Of a stretch of DNA of 43,675 nucleotides, positions 16,090 to 43,488 are shown piece by piece (position 1 is the first letter of the stretch; the number at the start of each line of letters is the position of its first letter). Made by a program: the position numbers and the translations under genes. Under the pieces are notes generated by a model. That model was given only the letters and a program-made list of their open reading frames with translations, did no database searches and was not told where the DNA came from. The stretch covers positions 1 to 43,675 of the forward strand of contig JAFLUD010000007.1 of NCBI GenBank assembly GCA_022508965.1. Direction: 5' to 3'. This DNA comes from Oscillospiraceae bacterium. GTDB taxonomy: Bacteria; Bacillota; Clostridia; Oscillospirales; Ruminococcaceae.

Positions 16090-16698
16090 TTATTCAAATT
16101 TAACACTGGGATTTTTCTCCGCGTAAGCTACCATCTGCGAGTAGGTCATCTGGGAAAAATCCGCGTCTGCCTTCGGCGTGCCGTCATTCGACGCGCCGGG
16201 ATTGAAGCCGGTGAAATTCTGCGGCCGGGGATCGTCCTTTTCCGCGAACAGATAGCCGTCCGATTTACGGACCTCCTCGAGCTGCTCCGAAAGCCCCGAG
16301 AGCTTGCCGTCCGAGCCGAGCTTGATATTCTCGAAGTTCAGCAAGGCTCTCACCGCTTTTCCGTTCTTTGCGCCGGCTGTTGCCAACGCCGAATCCACGG
16401 CATTATCGAGCTTCAGCTGCGCGATCTCCGCCTCGTGAGCCTTGTTTTGCTCGGCGTTCGCATTCTGCAATTCCTCGATCTGCTTTTTCAGAGCCTCGTT
16501 GTCACCGCTGAATTTCTTCAGCTCCGACAGCTGGTTGTCGCGCTCCTCGACAGCGGATCTCAAGGACTTGTTCTCCTCGTTGACCTCGTTGAACCGCGCC
16601 TTCGGGATATAGCCCTTAAGCTCCTCGGCGGACGCGCTCTCGCACTTCTCCGCGATCTCCTCGGATACGCCCAGCTTCAAAAAATCTTCCTTCTTCAT
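16090..16698 (-). CDS. Capsid scaffold protein (GP20/DUF4355-like)
   Basis: 202 residues. The N-terminus LKLGVSEEIAEKCESASAEELKGYIPKARFNEVNEENKSL (quoted as KARFNEVNEENKSL) and the long charged coiled coil (about 38-100, LEEL/QIEELQNANAEQNK style) are typical of phage minor structural GP20 scaffolds. The C-terminal 60 residues are Pro/Gly-rich and end in a helix thought to bind capsid protein. It precedes the capsid gene by 14 nt. The ribosome site GAAAGGAAG precedes the ATG. Confidence 0.88.
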   Translation of the reverse strand: MKKEDFLKLGVSEEIAEKCESASAEELKGYIPKARFNEVNEENKSLRSAVEERDNQLSELKKFSGDNEALKKQIEELQNANAEQNKAHEAEIAQLKLDNAVDSALATAGAKNGKAVRALLNFENIKLGSDGKLSGLSEQLEEVRKSDGYLFAEKDDPRPQNFTGFNPGASNDGTPKADADFSQMTYSQMVAYAEKNPSVKFE

Positions 16699-16794: not shown

Positions 16795-16827
16795 TATAAA
16801 AAAGCGCCTTGATCTCTCAAAGCGCTT
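16795..16827 (-). terminator. Rho-independent terminator after the MuF/small-gene pair
   Basis: On the minus strand an 11-bp stem (AAGCGCTTTGA / TCAAGGCGCTT, one G-T-type mismatch at the middle) with a 4-nt loop is followed by TTTTAT. It stands between the 105-residue gene and the scaffold gene, in a 182-nt gap that is unusual for this packed operon. The gap also holds a second hairpin (CGCGG/CCGCG, 16731-16746). It may separate an acquired unit from the capsid genes, or be read through. Confidence 0.65.
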
Positions 16828-16880
16828 GATTATTTAATTATCGACATCACTAATTTTTTCGGGCTTTGCAGCAAATGTCA

Positions 16881-17198
16881 TTACCAATCAATCCAATCTA
16901 TCGGAAGCCCTTTTTCAAGACACTCTTTTAGGCGCTCGTTAACTTCTTCGTATGTCATTCCCTTATATTCGATAGTTTTTTTAACCTCATCAATATTTGA
17001 AACAACGTGATGACCTTGAATAAAATAAAAGCTGTTATCAAAACGAATAACGCACAATTTATCTTCCTCTGTAGCGCTTTCAAAAGCCGTGAATTTATAG
17101 ACCCCGTTTTCTTTCTCACAAAGCCTGTCTATTACTCGTAATGTTTCCACAGTATGCAGCAAAACAATTTCATTCCTTTCCAAGCAATATTTCCACAA
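16881..17198 (-). CDS. Small AT-rich gene after MuF; possible immunity-type partner
   Basis: 105 residues, acidic, with no membrane segment: FDNSFYFIQGHHVV, then VKKTIEYKGMTYEEVNERLKECLE and the ending LPIDWIDW. Family not recognised. The coding region is visibly richer in A+T than the capsid genes on either side and is closed by a terminator. It overlaps the MuF 3' end by 29 nt. Start uncertain: the ribosome-like GGAAAGGA lies inside the open frame, so initiation at the TTG near 17183 is also possible, giving about 100 residues. Position directly after a MuF protein with an extra C-terminal enzyme-like domain fits the immunity genes described for phage MuF polymorphic toxins; that role is inference. 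Confidence 0.7.
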   Translation of the reverse strand: MWKYCLERNEIVLLHTVETLRVIDRLCEKENGVYKFTAFESATEEDKLCVIRFDNSFYFIQGHHVVSNIDEVKKTIEYKGMTYEEVNERLKECLEKGLPIDWIDW

Positions 17199-18930
17199 CC
17201 TTTTTAGCGGTTTCGCGCGGATTCCCGTTCATATACTCGGCTACAGCCTCAGCAACAAACTCATCATCACTACATAATGCATAATAAGAGATGACCTCCC
17301 CCGCTTTTTTCATGTTTTCGACATTATCATCCGCAAACCAGAAATCCAAGCCAATATCATTTTCAATTTGCTTTCTAAGCGATGAAATCTTGCTCAATTT
17401 CCCGGGAGAATTATCGGTGAGCCAGTACTTAACGGCGTGCCCCAGCTCGTGCCTGATACCGTGCTCGGCAGCGGAAGTGCTCCACGCCCCTAAATCAAAG
17501 TTTTCTTTAGCTTCTTTTGCCAGACGCGACAAAGCGTTTTTAGTCGACACTTCTCTCATAATAACAACATGAAGATTTTTCTGATATGCCGCCGCCCAGT
17601 CTTTATCTCGCGATGTATCATGCATGATGCCGTCCAAATACCCCCCCTTGTGTAAGTCTCCGAAAACATCATACACTCTTGCAATCTCCCGGTTTACCAT
17701 GTTCGCGGCGTCAAGATTGAACTTGTCATACTGCAAATAATCAAAACCAAGAATATTTTTGGCATATTCTTTCGCTTCATCAATACTTTGCGCGTCTTTG
17801 AAGCGAGCCGAAAGCCACTCGCTTTCTTTCTTGATTATATCACTGTTCTCCCCGTCTGTCAAGTCCAAACCGTACTTTTTCAGCACCGACTTATCGCCCT
17901 TGACAAACGCCGCCTCCCATTCGTCGAAGGTCATATTTGCGGGAACGTAGTAGGTCTTGCCGTTCGTGTCCCGCGCAGCGCGTTCCCCTATCTGTCCGAA
18001 ATTCTCCTCGAAATACGGGATCGTAGTTGAACGGCACCACGGGTGGAACGGCGGCGCGGTAACTCCCGCCCGGTAATCCTTCATCGGGAAGTGCTTCTTG
18101 TCCATTTCGCGACAGATATCCGAGGTGTGCGCGTCAAGCGTCGCCAGGATCTCGTATTCCTCGACCCCGAGATTGTTGTAGCACTCGCCCTGCGCCGCGC
18201 TCGAAAAATACGCCGATTCGGTCATTACAAGCCGTCCCGCGTTGCTTTTCGAGGTGGAGAGCTTCTTCGCGATCGCGTTTATCGCCTTTTGCGGATCGCC
18301 GCCCGTGAGTAGGTTCTGTGTGAGCTGACGGTGAACCTCGCCGATCAGCTTCTGCTTGTTCTTCCAAATGCGTTCGGAGAAATTGTAGCCGTCCGCCGCC
18401 CACGGCTTCGCAAGCACCTTCTCGATCTGAGACTGATTCAGCCCCGCGATCTCAAAGCCCACGCCAAAGCCCTTTTGAAGCTCAAACGCGGTGTGATAAT
18501 AGCCGCTTTGATAGGTGTTGAACAGCAGCGTCGTAAAAGTGCCGTGCTGCGCCGCGAACAGCTCCTGAAGACTGTTTTCGGTGTGGATCTTCAGCGCCTC
18601 AAGCCTTGATATGTGAAATCTCGCGGAAGCGTTTTCAAGCTCCTTTACCCACCGCCCGTCGAGAGCGTTTTCGCGGGCGCGTTTTATGTATTCCTCAACC
18701 TCCCACTTGAATTCCTCCAGCTCGTCCTTCGAAAGCAGCTTCCGCGCCTCGGCAAGCGTGATGCTGTTGTTTTTGGCAAGCCGCGCGTACCAGTGCAAAA
18801 TGTCGCTCTCGATCAGCTTTTGCGCCCTTTTATACTGCTTCTCTATTTTCGGAAGAGATTTCAGGCTCATTTCGTTTTGAGCGGCTTCAAGCTGCGCAAA
18901 CCGCTGCTTCCAGTATTCCGCGTTTCTCAA
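17170..18930 (-). CDS. MuF-type minor head protein fused to a C-terminal HExxH metallopeptidase-like domain
   Basis: 586 residues. Residues about 1-310 are a typical SPP1 gp7/MuF head morphogenesis protein: a helical N-terminus, LVMTESAYFSSAAQ and the near-diagnostic CREMDKKHFPMKDY then APPFHPWCRSTTIPYF. MuF proteins sit inside the head near the portal and may be ejected with DNA. A linker (about 320-365) leads to an extra C-terminal domain with the zincin motif HELGH (494-498, in EHGIRHELGHAVKYW) and a later SDDEFVAEAVAEY, whose Glu near 561 could be the third zinc ligand. Known MuF proteins of temperate Firmicutes phages can carry C-terminal toxin domains. This 3' part (about 17170-17900) is more AT-rich than the 5' part, suggesting a swapped module. 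Confidence 0.88.
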   Translation of the reverse strand: MRNAEYWKQRFAQLEAAQNEMSLKSLPKIEKQYKRAQKLIESDILHWYARLAKNNSITLAEARKLLSKDELEEFKWEVEEYIKRARENALDGRWVKELENASARFHISRLEALKIHTENSLQELFAAQHGTFTTLLFNTYQSGYYHTAFELQKGFGVGFEIAGLNQSQIEKVLAKPWAADGYNFSERIWKNKQKLIGEVHRQLTQNLLTGGDPQKAINAIAKKLSTSKSNAGRLVMTESAYFSSAAQGECYNNLGVEEYEILATLDAHTSDICREMDKKHFPMKDYRAGVTAPPFHPWCRSTTIPYFEENFGQIGERAARDTNGKTYYVPANMTFDEWEAAFVKGDKSVLKKYGLDLTDGENSDIIKKESEWLSARFKDAQSIDEAKEYAKNILGFDYLQYDKFNLDAANMVNREIARVYDVFGDLHKGGYLDGIMHDTSRDKDWAAAYQKNLHVVIMREVSTKNALSRLAKEAKENFDLGAWSTSAAEHGIRHELGHAVKYWLTDNSPGKLSKISSLRKQIENDIGLDFWFADDNVENMKKAGEVISYYALCSDDEFVAEAVAEYMNGNPRETAKKVVEILLGKE

Positions 18931-20396
18931 TCAATATCACCGCCGCTGTCGTTGTCGAACATACCCCGAGCCTCGGATTCCTCCCGTTCCTTTTGCGCTG
19001 CCAGTCTTCGCAGCTCCTCTTCCTTGTCGTCGATCCACGGGTGCTGTCCGACGATCGTCTCATCGGAAAGCAGTCCGACGGACTTCGCACAGTTTTCGAT
19101 CGCCTCGCTCTCGTTTATGAGAATATCGCGGTTGAAAATTATGTTGACCTTCTCGCCCTCGAAATTGCCCCTGCCGCTGTTTGCGAGGTAGGCGTTCACG
19201 AAAAACAGCAGGTCCTCAAACATCGCCTGCAATTCCGTTTCCCAGTCGTTACAGTCGAGGTCGATATCGGAATACATCGACTGTATATTCATCTGGTTGG
19301 GATTCCCCGAGAGCCTGTCGTCCTTCGCGTCATAGCCCATACCGTTCTCGACGATAGCCTTCTTGAATATCTCGATTATCGACTTGTAATTATCGGAATT
19401 AACTTTGATCTCCAGCGTCTCAACGCCGCCCTTGGTCTCGCCGTCATAGCGGACCTTGACCGCGCCGTAGGTTGCAAGATTGCGCCGAAATTCCCCGAGA
19501 TTTGTGCCGTCGTAGTTTTTCAGCACAAGAATGGTGTTTCGCGCGTCCTCCTGCATAGCGTTCTCGAAGTCCGACAGCATGATATTCAGCCCGTCCTGGA
19601 GCGTCTTTACCTGCTTTAACAGCGGAGTTTCCGTCTCGGTGTATTTCAGCGCGACAAGCGGGATCTTCGCCCAGTTGAGCGAAACGTCCCCCGCCGTAAC
19701 ATACGCGTATTTATACAGACCGTTCTCGTCAAGATCCGGCTCGAGCCTGCCGCCGTCGGTGAGAATATACTTTTCCACACCCAGATCGCGGTATATCTCG
19801 ACCTTGTGAATAACAACGGGAGCCGCCCCCTCGTAGCCCTCCACGCAGTACAGCCGAAGCGCACAGTCAAGCTCCGTATGCTCGCTGTCCTTCCAGTAGG
19901 GCTTGATCTCATACGCGGGAAAATATCGAAAACATAGCTTTCCCTGCTCGTCAAAGCAAGGATAAAGCCACGCGACGCCGCCGTTCAGAGCGGCCTTTCC
20001 CGCGTTTTTGAGGGTACGCATAAAGCGCTTGTTGAATATCTCTTTCAGCGCCTCAACATACGCCTTGTTTTGGCTTTCCACCACAAACGGCTGACCGAGC
20101 AGATAATTCGCCTTCTGCTTCACGAGCTTTTTATACTGGTTATCCACAATGCGGTTATTCGGGAGATTGGTCACTTCCGTAAGCTCGCCGTTTTCGCCGA
20201 TGACCATACGCTTTCTGAAGAGAATATCGTGCTCTCCGCCATAATATAAATGCCCACCTATCTGCGCCATGCGCTCGGGGGAATTCCGCCAGCGTGACAG
20301 CTCCGTCTCAAAGAATTCAAGCTCGGACATCCGGCTTTCGGCGCCCGCGGTTATCGCGTTCCCGATCCGCGTCGTGATATCGTCAAATAAAAACAT
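18927..20396 (-). CDS. Portal protein (SPP1 gp6-like)
   Basis: 489 residues. Typical features: FETELSRWRNSPERMAQIGGHLYYGGEHDILFRKR near the N-terminus (quoted: IGGHLYYGGEHDIL), NRIVDNQYKKLVKQKANYLLGQP, LKNAGKAALNGGVAWLYP and later LGEFRRNLATYGAVKVRYD. This family forms the 12-subunit ring through which DNA enters and leaves the capsid. It overlaps the MuF ATG by 4 nt and follows the terminase large subunit by 12 nt, as in SPP1-like packaging operons. The C-terminus is Glu/Arg-rich and ends in acidic DNDSGGDID. Confidence 0.95.
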   Translation of the reverse strand: MFLFDDITTRIGNAITAGAESRMSELEFFETELSRWRNSPERMAQIGGHLYYGGEHDILFRKRMVIGENGELTEVTNLPNNRIVDNQYKKLVKQKANYLLGQPFVVESQNKAYVEALKEIFNKRFMRTLKNAGKAALNGGVAWLYPCFDEQGKLCFRYFPAYEIKPYWKDSEHTELDCALRLYCVEGYEGAAPVVIHKVEIYRDLGVEKYILTDGGRLEPDLDENGLYKYAYVTAGDVSLNWAKIPLVALKYTETETPLLKQVKTLQDGLNIMLSDFENAMQEDARNTILVLKNYDGTNLGEFRRNLATYGAVKVRYDGETKGGVETLEIKVNSDNYKSIIEIFKKAIVENGMGYDAKDDRLSGNPNQMNIQSMYSDIDLDCNDWETELQAMFEDLLFFVNAYLANSGRGNFEGEKVNIIFNRDILINESEAIENCAKSVGLLSDETIVGQHPWIDDKEEELRRLAAQKEREESEARGMFDNDSGGDID

Positions 20397-34872: not shown

Positions 34873-35508
34873 ATGGATAAGATTGGGAATTATATCCGAC
34901 GTCTTCGTAACGAAAAGGGACTAACGCAGGAACAGTTAGGCGAAATGGTCGGCGTGCAAAAGGCGGCTGTTCAAAAATGGGAAAACGGTTCCGTTCAAAA
35001 CCTTAAACGTGCAACCATAAAGAAATTGGCTGAAATATTTGATGTTTCGCCGGCCTCATTCGTTAAAGACGACGACGCCCCCGAGCCTTCCAACATCCGC
35101 GCGGTGATCACGGACGGTATTTACAATGTTCCCGTGTTCGGGAGTGTATCCGCGGGCTTCGGAGCCTACGCAAGCGACTGTGTATTGGATTATATCCCTG
35201 TTATAATCAAGAACCCCTCGGACGTGGATAACACGATCGCGATCAAGGTTGACGGAGACAGTATGTCACCGAAAATCGAGAACGGCGATATAATCGTTGT
35301 TCGCCGCCAGACCTCCGTTGACAGCGGAGATATCGGCGTGGTGCTCCTCGACGGTGATGAGGGCCTGGTAAAGCGAATCGTTTACGGTCCGACGTGGATC
35401 GAGCTGCAGTCTATCAACGAGAAGTATTCCGTGCAGCGCTTCGACGGCGCCGAGGTGCAACGGCTGAGAGTTGTCGGGAAGGTTGTAGGTAGCTACAAGA
35501 CGTTTTAA
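34873..35508 (+). CDS. CI/LexA-type phage repressor (HTH + S24 peptidase)
   Basis: 211 residues. N-terminal helix-turn-helix (IRRLRNEKGLTQEQLGEMVG, VQKAAVQKWENGS) of the HTH_3 type; C-terminal S24 self-cleavage domain with GDSMSPKIENGDIIVV (Ser130) and GLVKRIVY (Lys167) as catalytic pair, and a likely cleavage site at Ala94-Gly95 (SVSAGFGAY). It keeps the prophage silent and probably falls apart on RecA activation after DNA damage, so the prophage is likely inducible. It stands divergent to the Cro-like gene. Confidence 0.95.
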   Translation: MDKIGNYIRRLRNEKGLTQEQLGEMVGVQKAAVQKWENGSVQNLKRATIKKLAEIFDVSPASFVKDDDAPEPSNIRAVITDGIYNVPVFGSVSAGFGAYASDCVLDYIPVIIKNPSDVDNTIAIKVDGDSMSPKIENGDIIVVRRQTSVDSGDIGVVLLDGDEGLVKRIVYGPTWIELQSINEKYSVQRFDGAEVQRLRVVGKVVGSYKTF

Positions 35509-38294: not shown

Positions 38295-39848
38295 ATGAAC
38301 CAATACGCAATGTACCTCCGCAAATCGCGCGCGGATCTGGACGCGGAAGCCCACGGCGAGGGCGAGACGCTGGCGCGGCACAAGAACGCGCTGCTGGAGC
38401 TTGCGCAGAAAATGAACATCACCGTTTCCGATATATACGAGGAGGTCGTTTCGGGAGACAGTATCGAGGGGCGGCCGCAAATAAAGAATCTCCTCGGGGA
38501 GATCGAGAAGCGCACTTATGCGGGCGTTCTGTGCATGGATATCGACCGTCTGGCGCGCGGAGACACAATAGATCAAGGCATAATCGCACGCGCGTTCCGG
38601 CTGTCGAACACCAAGATAATCACTCCGAAGAAGACATACGACCCGAACTCCGAGTTTGACGAGGAATATTTCGAGTTCGAGCTGTTTATGGCGCGGCGCG
38701 AATTTAAAATCATCGGACGGCGGATCCAGCGCGGACGCATTGCCTCGGCGAAGGAAGGGCGCTTTATCGGCTCAACGGCGCCGTACGGCTACAATAAAGT
38801 GAAGATTCCCAAAGACAAAGGATATACTCTCGAGCCTGACCCCGACGAGAGCAAGGTCGTGCAGCTGATATTTGAAATGTATCTCGCGGGCGACGGTAAA
38901 TATGTAATCGCCCGGAAGCTGGACGCGCTTGGTATCAAACCGCGGCGCAACGAACATTGGAGCGTCGCCACGGTGATCAACATACTGAAGAATCCCGTGT
39001 ATATCGGGAAAACGCGCTGGGGCTACCGAAAATACGTCAAGGAACTGTCGGACGGGAATCTCGTTCAACACCGCGTGAAAAACGACGAGTGCGTTTATGT
39101 TGACGGGCTGCATCCGCCGCTTATATCGGAGGCGGATTTTAACAAGGTTGAGGAACTGCTCAGCCGCAAAGTCACCCCGCCGAAAAAATCCGATCTGTCG
39201 CTCAAAAACCCACTTTCGGGATTGATCTACTGCGGAAAATGCGGCTCGGCAATGACACGGCTCGGCGAAAACAGCCGCTGCCGAAGCGCTACGCTCAAAT
39301 GCTCCAACCGCTACTGTGAAACGGTCGCGTCCAAGCTACATCTGGTGGAAAACGCCGTTATCGACGGGCTTGAAAACTGGCTTAATGAGTATAGAATTCG
39401 TGTTGAGGAAAATGCTCCGCTTGTAAACGAAAGCACGATGGATATCACCGCAAAAAAGATCTCCGACCTGAAGTCCGAAAAAGAAGTGATTGAAAAACAG
39501 CTCGAGAACACGTTCGACCTGCTGGAACAGGGAATCTATACTCCCGAGATCTTCCGGGAACGCAGCGAAATCCTCAAAGGAAAAATATCGGCTGCCGAGG
39601 ACAAGATCGCCCGGGTCGAACAAGAACTTAAAAGCTATCGGGACAGCTTCAACGCGCGAAACGAGTTTATCCCGCGCGTGGAGAACGTGATCCTGATCTA
39701 TCGAACCTCAAGCGACGCCGCGGAGAAAAACCGCCTGCTGAAATCGGTTATCAAGCGCGTGACTTACACAAAAACCGAGCGCAACACCCGCCGCAATCCC
39801 GACGAGGCTAACTTCACGATCTTTACGGAGCCTTTATTGCCAAAATAG
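38295..39848 (+). CDS. Large serine recombinase (phage integrase)
   Basis: 517 residues. The resolvase domain starts YAMYLRKSRAD with the catalytic Ser11, then GVLCMDIDRLARGD (residues 78-90) and GRRIQRGRIASAKEGRFIGS. The recombinase domain (about 165-290) is followed by a zinc ribbon (CGKCGSAM, Cys313/316, with later Cys336/341) and a long coiled coil (about 375-465). It cuts attP and attB with a 2-bp crossover to integrate the phage. It lies at the right prophage end, pointing outward to the truncated LysM/GH18 gene. The gene is GC-rich, unlike the two genes before it. Confidence 0.95.
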   Translation: MNQYAMYLRKSRADLDAEAHGEGETLARHKNALLELAQKMNITVSDIYEEVVSGDSIEGRPQIKNLLGEIEKRTYAGVLCMDIDRLARGDTIDQGIIARAFRLSNTKIITPKKTYDPNSEFDEEYFEFELFMARREFKIIGRRIQRGRIASAKEGRFIGSTAPYGYNKVKIPKDKGYTLEPDPDESKVVQLIFEMYLAGDGKYVIARKLDALGIKPRRNEHWSVATVINILKNPVYIGKTRWGYRKYVKELSDGNLVQHRVKNDECVYVDGLHPPLISEADFNKVEELLSRKVTPPKKSDLSLKNPLSGLIYCGKCGSAMTRLGENSRCRSATLKCSNRYCETVASKLHLVENAVIDGLENWLNEYRIRVEENAPLVNESTMDITAKKISDLKSEKEVIEKQLENTFDLLEQGIYTPEIFRERSEILKGKISAAEDKIARVEQELKSYRDSFNARNEFIPRVENVILIYRTSSDAAEKNRLLKSVIKRVTYTKTERNTRRNPDEANFTIFTEPLLPK

Positions 39849-41465: not shown

Positions 41466-41748
41466 AAGACAACACCGCGCAAAGGTCATGCGGTGTCGCA
41501 AAAATAATATTTTAAAGCGTTGATAAGAAACAGTACGCATCGGAAATTGTTCAGAGAGACGGCGTAGGCTGCGAGCCGTTCTTTTTCCCCTGCCGAACCC
41601 GTCTTTGAGCGCGCCCCGAAAGCATTGATCAAGGGGCGACGGTGTCTCCCGTTACGAGATTTTGAGATGCGGATTATCCGAATTTGGGTGGTAACGCGGG
41701 TTGTATTTACTCGTCCCTTGCTGTTTGCAGGGGGCGTTTTATTTTTTT
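41466..41748 (+). promoter_or_regulatory. T-box riboswitch controlling proS
   Basis: The leader starts with a small hairpin (ACACCGC/GCGGTGT, 41472-41496). Stem I features follow: AGTA near 41532, AGAGAG (41553-41558) and the distal GCTGCGAG (41568-41575). The 3' side GAACCCGTCTTTGAGC offers CCC (41598-41600), a proline codon followed by a purine, as the specifier. The T-box itself, TTGGGTGGTAACGCGGG (41684-41700), pairs with uncharged tRNA; it can otherwise give way to the terminator hairpin (41712-41736) with TTTTATTTTTTT. Uncharged tRNA-Pro would thus raise proS expression. Confidence 0.88.
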
Positions 41749-41766
41749 ACGAAAGGAATTACTGAA

Positions 41767-43488
41767 ATGAAACTGGACAAGTTAATCGGCGATAGATTCA
41801 AGGAGCGTCCCTCCGACTGTCAGATCGACTCCCATGCGCTTATGGTGCGCGGCGGCTACATCAAATACGTTGCCAACGGAATTTTCTCGAGCTATCCCCC
41901 GCTTAAGAGGATAACCCGAAAGATCGAGCAGATCATCCGCGAGGAAATGGACGCTATCGACGGGCAGGAGGTGCAGTTCCCTGTGGTAATGCCCGCGTCG
42001 CTCTGGAGCGAGAGCGGACGCTATGAATCCATAGGAAGCGAGCTGCTGCGCTTTACCGACAGAAACAAGCAGCCGATGGTGCTGGGTATGACCCACGAGG
42101 AAGCGGCGGTGCAATTGGTGCGCGAATACGCTAATTCCTACACTAAATACCCGTTTATGATCTACCAGATACAGACGAAGTTCCGCGACGAGGCGCGTCC
42201 GCGCGGCGGTCTTATCCGCGTGCGCGAGTTCACCATGAAGGACGCGTATTCCTTCCACACCTCTCAGGAGGACTTGGAGGAATACTACAAGCGCGCGCAT
42301 AAGGCGTATGAGAACGTGTACAGGCGCTGCGGCGCGCCGGGCGTTATCTCGGTAAAGTCCGACAGCGGCATGATGGGCGGCAGCGTTTCGCATGAGTTTA
42401 TGCTGCTGACTCCCGTGGGCGAGGATTCCATCGCTATCTGCAAGCACTGCGGCTTCACCTCCAACGTCGAGGCGGCGAAGTCCATTATCGAAAACGTTTG
42501 CGACGCGGAATCGGCGCCGCTTACCGAAGTTCACACCCCAGACTGCCACACCATCGAAGAGGTCTGCAATTTCCTGAATTCCCCTGCGGAGAAGTCGCTT
42601 AAGGCGGTTATTTACCAGAAAATACCCGACGATGAGTTTGTCGTGCTGTTTATCCGCGGCGATCTGGACGTGAACGAAACAAAGCTCACAAACTACCTCG
42701 GCTGCGATATCAGACCCGCGGTCATCGACGAGGAATGCGGCTTGGTTGCGGGATTTATCGGCCCCGTCGAGCTTAAGGTGAACGCGCCGCACGTCGTTCT
42801 GTTTGACGAGTCGCTCAAAAACACCAACAACCTCGTTTGCGGCGCTAATAAGGCGGATTTCCACCGCACGGGTCTGGACATCTCCCGCGACTGCGGCGAG
42901 GTGGAATTCCATGACTTCGCGAAGATAAAGGACGGCGGTATCTGCCCCGAATGCGGCGAACATTCCATAACCATTTCCCGCGGAATTGAGGTCGGGAACA
43001 TCTTCCAGCTTGGCACGAAGTATTCCAAGTCTATGGGAATGACCTACCTTGACGCCGACGGCAAGGAGCAGATCCCGATCATGGGCTGCTACGGCATAGG
43101 CGTGGGACGTCTTGCGGCTTCGGTCGCGGAGGCTTCTCACGACGAATACGGTCCTATCTGGCCGATGGCGATAGCCCCCTGGCAGGTGCATCTGTGCGCT
43201 GTCCGCGCCGACGACGAGCGCGTTAAAGCCGCCGCCGACAAGCTCTATGACGACCTGCAGTCCGCGGGCGTCGAGGTCATCTACGACGACAGGAACGTCC
43301 GCGCGGGCGTGATGTTCTCGGACGCCGACCTCATCGGAGTTCCGCTGCGCGTGGTCATCAGCCCCAGAAACCTCGACGAGGGGATATACGAGCTGTCATC
43401 GCGCGACAAAACGCTCTCCGAGAAGCTCGCCCCGGAAAACGCGGTCAGCCGCCTTAAAGAGCTGATCGCCGAAATGACGGCGAAGTAA
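41767..43488 (+). CDS. proS: Prolyl-tRNA synthetase, bacterial type
   Basis: 573 residues from MKLDKLIGDRF (41767), after GAAAGGAA; upstream in-frame codons belong to the T-box terminator. Class II synthetase motif 2 FRDEARPRGGLIRVREFTM and motif 3 GCYGIGVGRL are clear. The middle (about 225-380) is the INS editing domain that removes mischarged alanine, and the C-terminal anticodon-binding domain (WQVHLCAVRADDERVKAAAD) completes the bacterial-type enzyme. It charges tRNA-Pro in the cytoplasm. Expression is set by the T-box leader upstream. Host gene. Confidence 0.97.
   Translation: MKLDKLIGDRFKERPSDCQIDSHALMVRGGYIKYVANGIFSSYPPLKRITRKIEQIIREEMDAIDGQEVQFPVVMPASLWSESGRYESIGSELLRFTDRNKQPMVLGMTHEEAAVQLVREYANSYTKYPFMIYQIQTKFRDEARPRGGLIRVREFTMKDAYSFHTSQEDLEEYYKRAHKAYENVYRRCGAPGVISVKSDSGMMGGSVSHEFMLLTPVGEDSIAICKHCGFTSNVEAAKSIIENVCDAESAPLTEVHTPDCHTIEEVCNFLNSPAEKSLKAVIYQKIPDDEFVVLFIRGDLDVNETKLTNYLGCDIRPAVIDEECGLVAGFIGPVELKVNAPHVVLFDESLKNTNNLVCGANKADFHRTGLDISRDCGEVEFHDFAKIKDGGICPECGEHSITISRGIEVGNIFQLGTKYSKSMGMTYLDADGKEQIPIMGCYGIGVGRLAASVAEASHDEYGPIWPMAIAPWQVHLCAVRADDERVKAAADKLYDDLQSAGVEVIYDDRNVRAGVMFSDADLIGVPLRVVISPRNLDEGIYELSSRDKTLSEKLAPENAVSRLKELIAEMTAK

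Follow-up and report, generated by a model that had tools for sequence, protein, structure and literature searches.

Polymorphic toxins carried at the C-terminus of the phage head protein MuF were surveyed by Jamet et al. (PMC5576092), who, in the accessible text of their paper, report 191 MuF toxins, 20% of them with a metallopeptidase domain and 89.4% followed by an open reading frame (ORF) of fewer than 150 aa. For Apk2 with IapK/Aph1 (PMC12226406) and for Bxa (PMC11699363), the consulted sections describe MuF C-terminal enzymes that are toxic to E. coli and are neutralised by adjacent immunity genes. Internal promoters are described, in the portions available, for bacterial effector loci: in V. 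cholerae genes for type VI secretion system (T6SS) effectors, such as vasX-tsiV2, the immunity gene that follows is transcribed from a promoter within the effector gene at times when the remainder of the operon is silent (PMC3857813), and internal promoters serve both toxin and immunity in Salmonella rhs (PMC7043789). Here we describe the MuF locus of a stretch of 43,675 nucleotides (the window) from an Oscillospiraceae bacterium (GCA_022508965.1, JAFLUD010000007.1). The window is an entire contig (C138) from a bacterial genome assembled to 89.9% completeness, and it holds a temperate myovirus. Its MuF gene probably encodes a polymorphic toxin of this phage, a zincin metallopeptidase accompanied by a small immunity gene, whose own promoter–terminator unit would keep the lysogen immune.

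The predicted zincin domain and its small partner gene

A preliminary description of the locus had proposed a normal MuF part with an extra HELGH domain, followed by an AT-rich small gene and a terminator. The 586-codon ORF (17170-18930, minus strand) is there, and its N-terminal part is an ordinary MuF/SPP1_gp7 domain (PF04233, E 7.7e-12, 46.4 bits, cut-off 29.6; TIGR01641, E 5.8e-22, 78.1 bits, cut-off 39.65); among the 40 phage matches listed, 32 end between residues 338 and 358. The gene stands right after the portal gene and belongs to a temperate phage (with a repressor and an integrase); this position and a temperate phage both characterise MuF polymorphic toxins.

The tail contains HELGH at residues 494-498 and, downstream of it, EFVAEAVAEY, as described, and its predicted fold is that of a zincin. 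The features of the lethal-factor/PPEP type of zincin, HExxH with a third-ligand glutamate and a tyrosine, are found as H494, E495, H498, Y550 and E557. From other zincins, we take the two histidines to bind zinc and the glutamate of HELGH to be catalytic, with Glu557 probably as the third ligand and Tyr550 as a catalytic residue; the Y-x6-E spacing is presumably that of the M34 zincins. Since H, E and H of HExxH, together with Tyr550, Glu557 and Glu561, are invariant in all 13 rows of an alignment of the domain (A4), the HELGH domain is more than a chance motif. Glu561, which had been expected to cluster with His494 and His498, is a conserved glutamate, the second of its helix, the third ligand being probably Glu557. 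Left out of A4 were L002, L043, L044, L045 and L049, two duplicates (L038 and L041) and L055, a broken copy. L055, from Acetivibrio straminisolvens JCM 21531, has its zincin domain split between two ORFs and an intact small gene downstream; unbroken versions of this same domain are present in the viral contigs L037 and L038.

With residues 365-586, no NCBIfam model matched, no Pfam model did better than E 0.03, and one good PHROG match was obtained (phrog_21401, E 3.8e-10). The Pfam family ATLF (PF07737), which we take to represent the lethal-factor-type/PPEP zincins (M34), gave no match to the window domain up to E 10 and weak matches to 3 of the 13 members of A4 (best E 0.022). Against 50,697 phage records, the domain alone gave one convincing match, L002 (E 5e-11), and five others at E 2 or worse. 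A four-row profile matched six viral loci, nine genome-contig loci and 7 of 391 genomes of the class, the window's own genome and weak matches being counted and some loci being copies of one another. A same-family relative of the host (G266) bears on its contig C3 (L021) the toxin domain found in a contig of Hydrogenoanaerobacterium saccharovorans An564 (L051); at L051 the junction promoter match is weaker than that of the window (11 of 13), and a terminator was looked for there and not found.

The AT-rich ORF of 105 codons behind the MuF gene is also present (GC 0.36-0.39; MuF part and scaffold gene, 0.53-0.59). It had been said to overlap the MuF gene; the ORF stands, and the overlap depends on the most upstream start. 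Judged from the sequence, the most likely start is TTG 17162, past the MuF stop by 7 nt and preceded by GGAAAGGA, which gives a protein of 93 aa, within the 150 aa expected of an ORF directly 3′ of a MuF toxin gene. This TTG aligns with the ATG of the homologue at locus L050 (94 aa), whose frame has another ATG three codons earlier. Homologues lie behind related toxin domains, and the zincin relatives have ORFs of 47-97 aa that start from 32 nt before to 6 nt after the toxin stop. Twelve of the small proteins were aligned as a single family (A5; 13-59% identity to the window protein), which omits L002, L043, L044, L045, L049, L038, L041, L055 and L040, the last having the most divergent toxin domain. 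A hidden Markov model (HMM) of this family matched 17 of 79 downstream ORFs, every one behind the window's zincin family: the 12 model members, the duplicates L021, L004, L038 and L055, and L002 as the sole newcomer. The best ORF from outside the zincin family (E 0.013) stands behind L028, another HELGH tail, and all 12 members were recovered when left out in turn, the rows having been aligned together beforehand. The window protein matched no Pfam family above the curated cut-off (best PF13987, 17.4 bits, cut-off 27), and no Pfam family matched more than one of the 12 members at E 0.1 (best E 8.4e-4).

At L050, a toxin domain 76% identical to that of the window is followed by a small protein of 94-97 aa that is 59% identical. 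When 6.5 kb around the window gene were compared with L050, DNA similarity took the form of a single block of 989 bp (72.9%), from 17863 to the small-gene stop at 16881, and the head proteins encoded upstream of this block gave no significant blastp match between the two loci. The dN/dS values of the two coding parts are 0.067 and 0.19, with dS near saturation, and by this measure both toxin domain and small gene are under purifying selection. Toxin distances follow small-protein distances (Mantel r 0.66, p 5e-5 for 12 loci; r 0.75, p 1e-4 for the nine with carriers), and neither follows those of the carrier (toxin, r 0.08, p 0.28; small protein, r 0.05, p 0.34; nine of the 12 loci, those with a carrier part of more than 200 aa). 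By these comparisons, the toxin domain and the small gene are swapped, and diverge, as a pair, which favours toxin plus immunity over head maturation and, with the predicted fold, supports the zincin-type effector with a protective small gene that had been suggested.

Across 30 further MuF loci from the same order, a conserved MuF part is followed by a varying C-terminus, so that no universal C-terminus exists. HExxH occurs anywhere in the tail in eight of the 30 and is missing from 22; tails of fewer than 60 residues were found in seven (one cut by a contig end). An ORF of 40-150 aa lies directly 3′ of the MuF gene in 95 of 100 long-tailed and 7 of 18 short-tailed genes. L030 (G371:C2:19612-23469) encodes a 744-aa MuF protein that, as read from its translation, is apparently split at the cysteine motif by a HINT/intein-like insert. 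At L029 (G007:C27:96790-99963), two short ORFs match just the final ~55 residues of the MuF part, one of them with a toxin-like tail and a 130-aa downstream ORF, perhaps orphan toxin cassettes in a row. The small ORF 3′ of the MuF gene at L012 is cysteine-rich, and we assume that it resembles CPCC proteins.

A promoter-like sequence at the carrier/toxin junction and a terminator behind the small gene

The window gene contains, inside its reading frame and at the start of the block exchanged with L050, a consensus match to a sigma-70 promoter (Table 1), which the preliminary description had not mentioned. An identical match, 12 of 12 with TG, is found at the junction of L050, L052, L058 and L031, the last with a different toxin domain; inside the zincin, a 12-of-12 match is found in L039 and L056 (with TG) and in L002 (without). 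MuF loci were then collected whatever the toxin: 157 entered, 141 had a closed MuF ORF and 125 were left after 80% dereplication, comprising 106 long genes (tail of at least 90 aa), 18 short ones and one in neither class; the set excludes the window and the zincin loci L004, L021 and L036-L058. Sites were scored on the 12 hexamer positions plus TG (maximum 13), by which TG is enriched by selection in base counts.

A sense site of 12 or 13 points is present in 28 of the 106 long genes, antisense in none of them, and in none of the 18 short genes. Within a junction window of 60 codons, 60 of the 106 score at least 10 in sense and three in antisense, and 36 score at least 11 in sense and none in antisense; equal windows away from the junction reach 10 in 8/102, 3/102 and 8/101. 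Under synonymous-codon shuffling, the mean junction score is 8.80 (maximum of 300 shuffles 9.01) against the 9.73 observed, and junctions of at least 11 number 10.8 on average (maximum 18) against 36. Near the junction there are 52 exact TATAAT words; 14 of them have a -35 word (at least four matches) at a spacer of 16 and 24 have one at a spacer of 17, with 0-4 at each of the other 19 spacers tested. Because this TATAAT is read in two frames, as Ile-Ile/Ile-Met and as Tyr-Asn, a single conserved peptide fails to explain it. With one gene per toxin family (37), 13.8 genes reach 11 against 4.9 in shuffles, and with one per linker cluster (46), 14.3 against 2.5; antisense is 0 in both. In the tails of L077, L074, L065, L069, L014 and L024, a K-Y-N peptide recurs ~26-45 codons past the MuF part and encodes TATAAT in a different frame from the SGII-type junctions. 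Behind the junction promoters, in-frame starts that have a ribosome site show no enrichment over background windows (6/36 vs 48/315), which weakly favours an immunity-only transcript.

Nine annotated phage genes, picked by us from 950 records (L198 lies outside the nine), were scanned in the same way. The pneumococcal phage IPP15 has a junction score of 12; phiCDKH02, Javan74 and phiZJ20091101-4 combine a score of 10 with an exact TATAAT, Javan326 reaches 11 at a site farther downstream, and Javan253 (10) and phiC2 (9) are without the exact word. The short MuF genes of Osiris and CD1801 score 9 and 10, and antisense scores in the annotated phages are 8-10. Searches of the main texts of open-access papers brought up no account of an internal promoter within a MuF toxin gene, and the word "promoter" never occurs in the main text of Jamet et al. 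(PMC5576092).

The terminator that had been noticed within the head operon is found after the small gene (16827-16802, minus strand). Terminators were called by our own rules, within 200 nt at the zincin loci and, in the larger set, within 600 nt with a limit of -8 kcal/mol. At 12 of the 17 zincin loci, the small gene is followed within 200 nt by a hairpin that has a T-tail. Among the 100 of the 106 long genes that have 600 nt of downstream sequence, 60 have a sense terminator there, against 4 of 91 upstream of MuF and two in block-shuffled sequence; the short genes have 2/18 in sense and 5/18 in antisense. Where the small ORF was called as well, the hairpin ends 19-62 nt past its stop in 37 of 57 genes. 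By promoter score, terminators were found in 13/17 genes (at least 12), 10/16 (11), 13/23 (10) and 24/44 (9 or less).

L004 and L031 are two contigs of one metagenome-assembled genome bin (G181), both ending within the MuF part; they may come from a pair of prophages or from two strain variants that share the bin. Their DNA is 91% identical up to 6 nt past the -10 box, has no similarity across the toxin domain, the small gene and the terminator hairpin, and is identical over 602 nt starting at the terminator T-tail; the exchanged unit is thus the stretch that the promoter would transcribe. The L031 toxin has a HEKCH motif and may be another metallopeptidase.

The minus strand of the window carries the genes for small and large terminase, portal, MuF, scaffold, major head, tail sheath and tape measure, and the plus strand those for a CI-like repressor and an integrase. 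Past the integrase, a 595-aa ORF (41701-43488, plus strand) matches phrog_35619, a PHROG of unknown function, in a nearly full-length alignment (E 9.4e-135).

Table 1. Features of the MuF locus and of its phage setting (positions in the window)
Feature	Position	Strand	Basis
Intrinsic terminator after the candidate immunity gene	16802..16827	-	hairpin search
Candidate immunity gene, 93 aa from TTG 17162 (105-codon ORF extends back to 17198)	16881..17162	-	A5 family; 59% identical L050 homologue
Predicted zincin metallopeptidase (toxin) domain, residues 362-586 plus stop	17170..17847	-	alignments A1/A4, predicted fold, profile vs PDB
Tyr550, Glu557 (probable third zinc ligand), Glu561	17248..17283	-	invariant in A4
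HELGH, residues 494-498 (codons 17451-17437)	17437..17451	-	H, E, G, H columns invariant in A4
Putative intragenic sigma-70-type promoter, TTGACA-17-TATAAT with TG extension, 12 of 12	17834..17862	-	motif scan; exchanged block begins 17863
MuF/SPP1-gp7 carrier part, residues 1 to ~345	17896..18930	-	PF04233 and TIGR01641; ends of phage matches
Scaffold protein gene, next in head operon after the small gene	16090..16698	-	PF06810, E 2.2e-45
SPP1-type portal gene, directly upstream of the MuF gene	18927..20396	-	PF05133, E 5.3e-78
CI-like repressor (temperate phage)	34873..35508	+	phrog_4, E 7.9e-51
Integrase (temperate phage)	38295..39848	+	phrog_95, E 2.5e-110

Proposed mechanism and rival explanations

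In the toxin–immunity reading that we prefer, a few copies of the MuF-zincin would sit in the head near the portal and enter the next cell along with the DNA, where the zincin would cut a bacterial cytosolic protein; the 93-aa protein would bind the zincin and block its activity. Head packaging and delivery into the cell are suggested by analogy with SPP1 gp7 and with published MuF work, and the delivery, target and toxicity of the zincin by analogy with Apk2 and Bxa, neutralisation by the small protein being presumed. In the lysogen, with the late operon off, the internal promoter would still drive a transcript, from near 17827 to near 16802, that covers the 3′ part of the toxin gene and the small gene and stops at the terminator. 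The toxin part of this transcript would be mostly without usable starts, and immunity would be made and toxin not; once the late operon is on, both would be made. The embedded promoter and terminator would in this way explain how lysogens stay immune while the late operon is off.

We also lean, with less assurance, towards a more general proposal, namely that MuF toxin loci are swappable cartridges in a fixed frame, with a near-consensus sigma-70 promoter at the junction, a terminator behind the immunity gene and cassettes exchanged at both marks. The lysogen would then always transcribe the immunity gene that matches the toxin of its virion, though the late operon is silent, and this would apply to MuF toxins in general, zincins or not, in the phages of this and related bacterial classes. 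This cartridge proposal is given lower weight because L004 and L031 are contig ends of one metagenome bin.

Several observations count against these proposals. The small-protein HMM, run on the 79 downstream ORFs, misses those of the distant zincins L040, L043, L044 and L049, and the Mantel p-values ignore relatedness, some carriers also being too dissimilar for good alignment. The promoter lies inside the toxin domain in five relatives; 46 of the 106 long genes score below 10 at the junction, and 6 of the 17 zincin-family genes score 10 or less anywhere. The 10.8 genes that still reach 11 in shuffles mean that the peptide accounts for part of the signal, and when the genes are grouped very loosely (12 groups, of which one has 95 members), three groups reach 11, antisense 0. 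No terminator was found within 200 nt at 5 of the 17 zincin loci, antisense terminators occur in 19 of the 100 long genes, and weak junction promoters do not go with clearly fewer terminators (24/44 vs 13/17). The leader ahead of the small gene would be ~665 nt, and translation of a truncated zincin could begin at residue 419, an in-frame GTG that has a ribosome-site match of 4 nt.

The alternative that survives best, and which we hold to be possible rather than probable, is that of an infection effector: the zincin would act at entry by cutting a protein of host defence or regulation, and its small partner, like a pro-domain, would mainly shield phage head proteins and the host during assembly. 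Jamet et al. (PMC5576092) consider, in the accessible text, that MuF toxins of the peptidase kind may have moderate toxicity and influence lysogeny or act against defence, and zincin-like peptidases are said, in the accessible part of another paper, to be the commonest domain of phage and plasmid polyvalent proteins (PMC5512222). An inhibitor needed for assembly only, however, requires no promoter and terminator of its own, yet 36 of the 106 junctions reach at least 11 and 60 of the 100 long genes have a terminator.

Another explanation, which we regard as unlikely, is an internal toxin–antitoxin module, in which the internal promoter yields a short free toxin together with the antitoxin. The GTG at residue 419 would suit such a module, for which the described part of Salmonella rhs (PMC7043789) offers a precedent, yet starts of this kind are no more frequent behind junction promoters than elsewhere, as given above.

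It is very improbable that the promoter-like motif arises as a side effect of AT-richness or of peptide conservation in the linker. Most of the signal is lost in synonymous shuffles and it is missing in antisense, spacers of 16-17 predominate, the motif falls in two reading frames, and the signal survives the reduction to one gene for each of the 37 toxin families; on the other side, the cassette is AT-rich, many linkers are related (46 of the 106 in one linker-DNA cluster) and peptide-preserving shuffles keep some sites. Least probable of all is head maturation or self-processing of MuF, which the preliminary description had raised and which draws on the name head maturation protease given to phrog_595, a PHROG MuF family (E 1.3e-95, residues 5-486), and to the phiC2 homologue in one record: exchange and joint divergence of toxin and small gene disfavour it, HExxH is no constant part of the head module (the 22 of 30 loci above), domain and small gene also occur on a carrier without detectable similarity (L050), and the operon has a scaffold protein.

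Comparison with known systems

A MuF toxin with a small downstream ORF is a kind already known. New, within the literature searched, are the zincin–immunity family and, more important, the embedded promoter–terminator frame. The zincin and its small partner would be a peptidase–immunity pair beyond Pfam and NCBIfam, and promoter and terminator would provide a DNA signature for locating toxin–immunity cassettes and their limits without knowledge of the toxin fold.

The window domain resembles the lethal-factor-type/PPEP zincins in its predicted fold, in profile similarity (against the PDB) and in the HExxH...Y-x6-E arrangement; it differs from them in its ~12% identity, the lack of a PF07737 match, the phage carrier and the small partner gene. 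With the MuF toxins of Jamet et al. (PMC5576092), as the accessible text presents them, the locus shares a MuF carrier behind the portal, a variable C-terminal toxin, a small 3′ ORF and a temperate phage, whereas the window zincin is without a Pfam or NCBIfam match above chance. Like Apk2 (PMC12226406) and Bxa (PMC11699363), it would have a C-terminal enzyme on a MuF head protein and an adjacent immunity gene. In the consulted sections, these two are a ppApp synthetase and an ADP-ribosyltransferase, unlike the peptidase of the window, and their promoters are those of expression plasmids.

The predicted promoter inside the effector gene, upstream of the immunity gene, is the feature shared with vasX-tsiV2 (PMC3857813) and Salmonella rhs (PMC7043789), in so far as the portions available describe them. 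Those cases concern bacterial secretion-system genes and were shown by reporters, whereas that of the window concerns phage head genes, is read from DNA only, and has a terminator behind and a promoter placed at the boundary of the swap.
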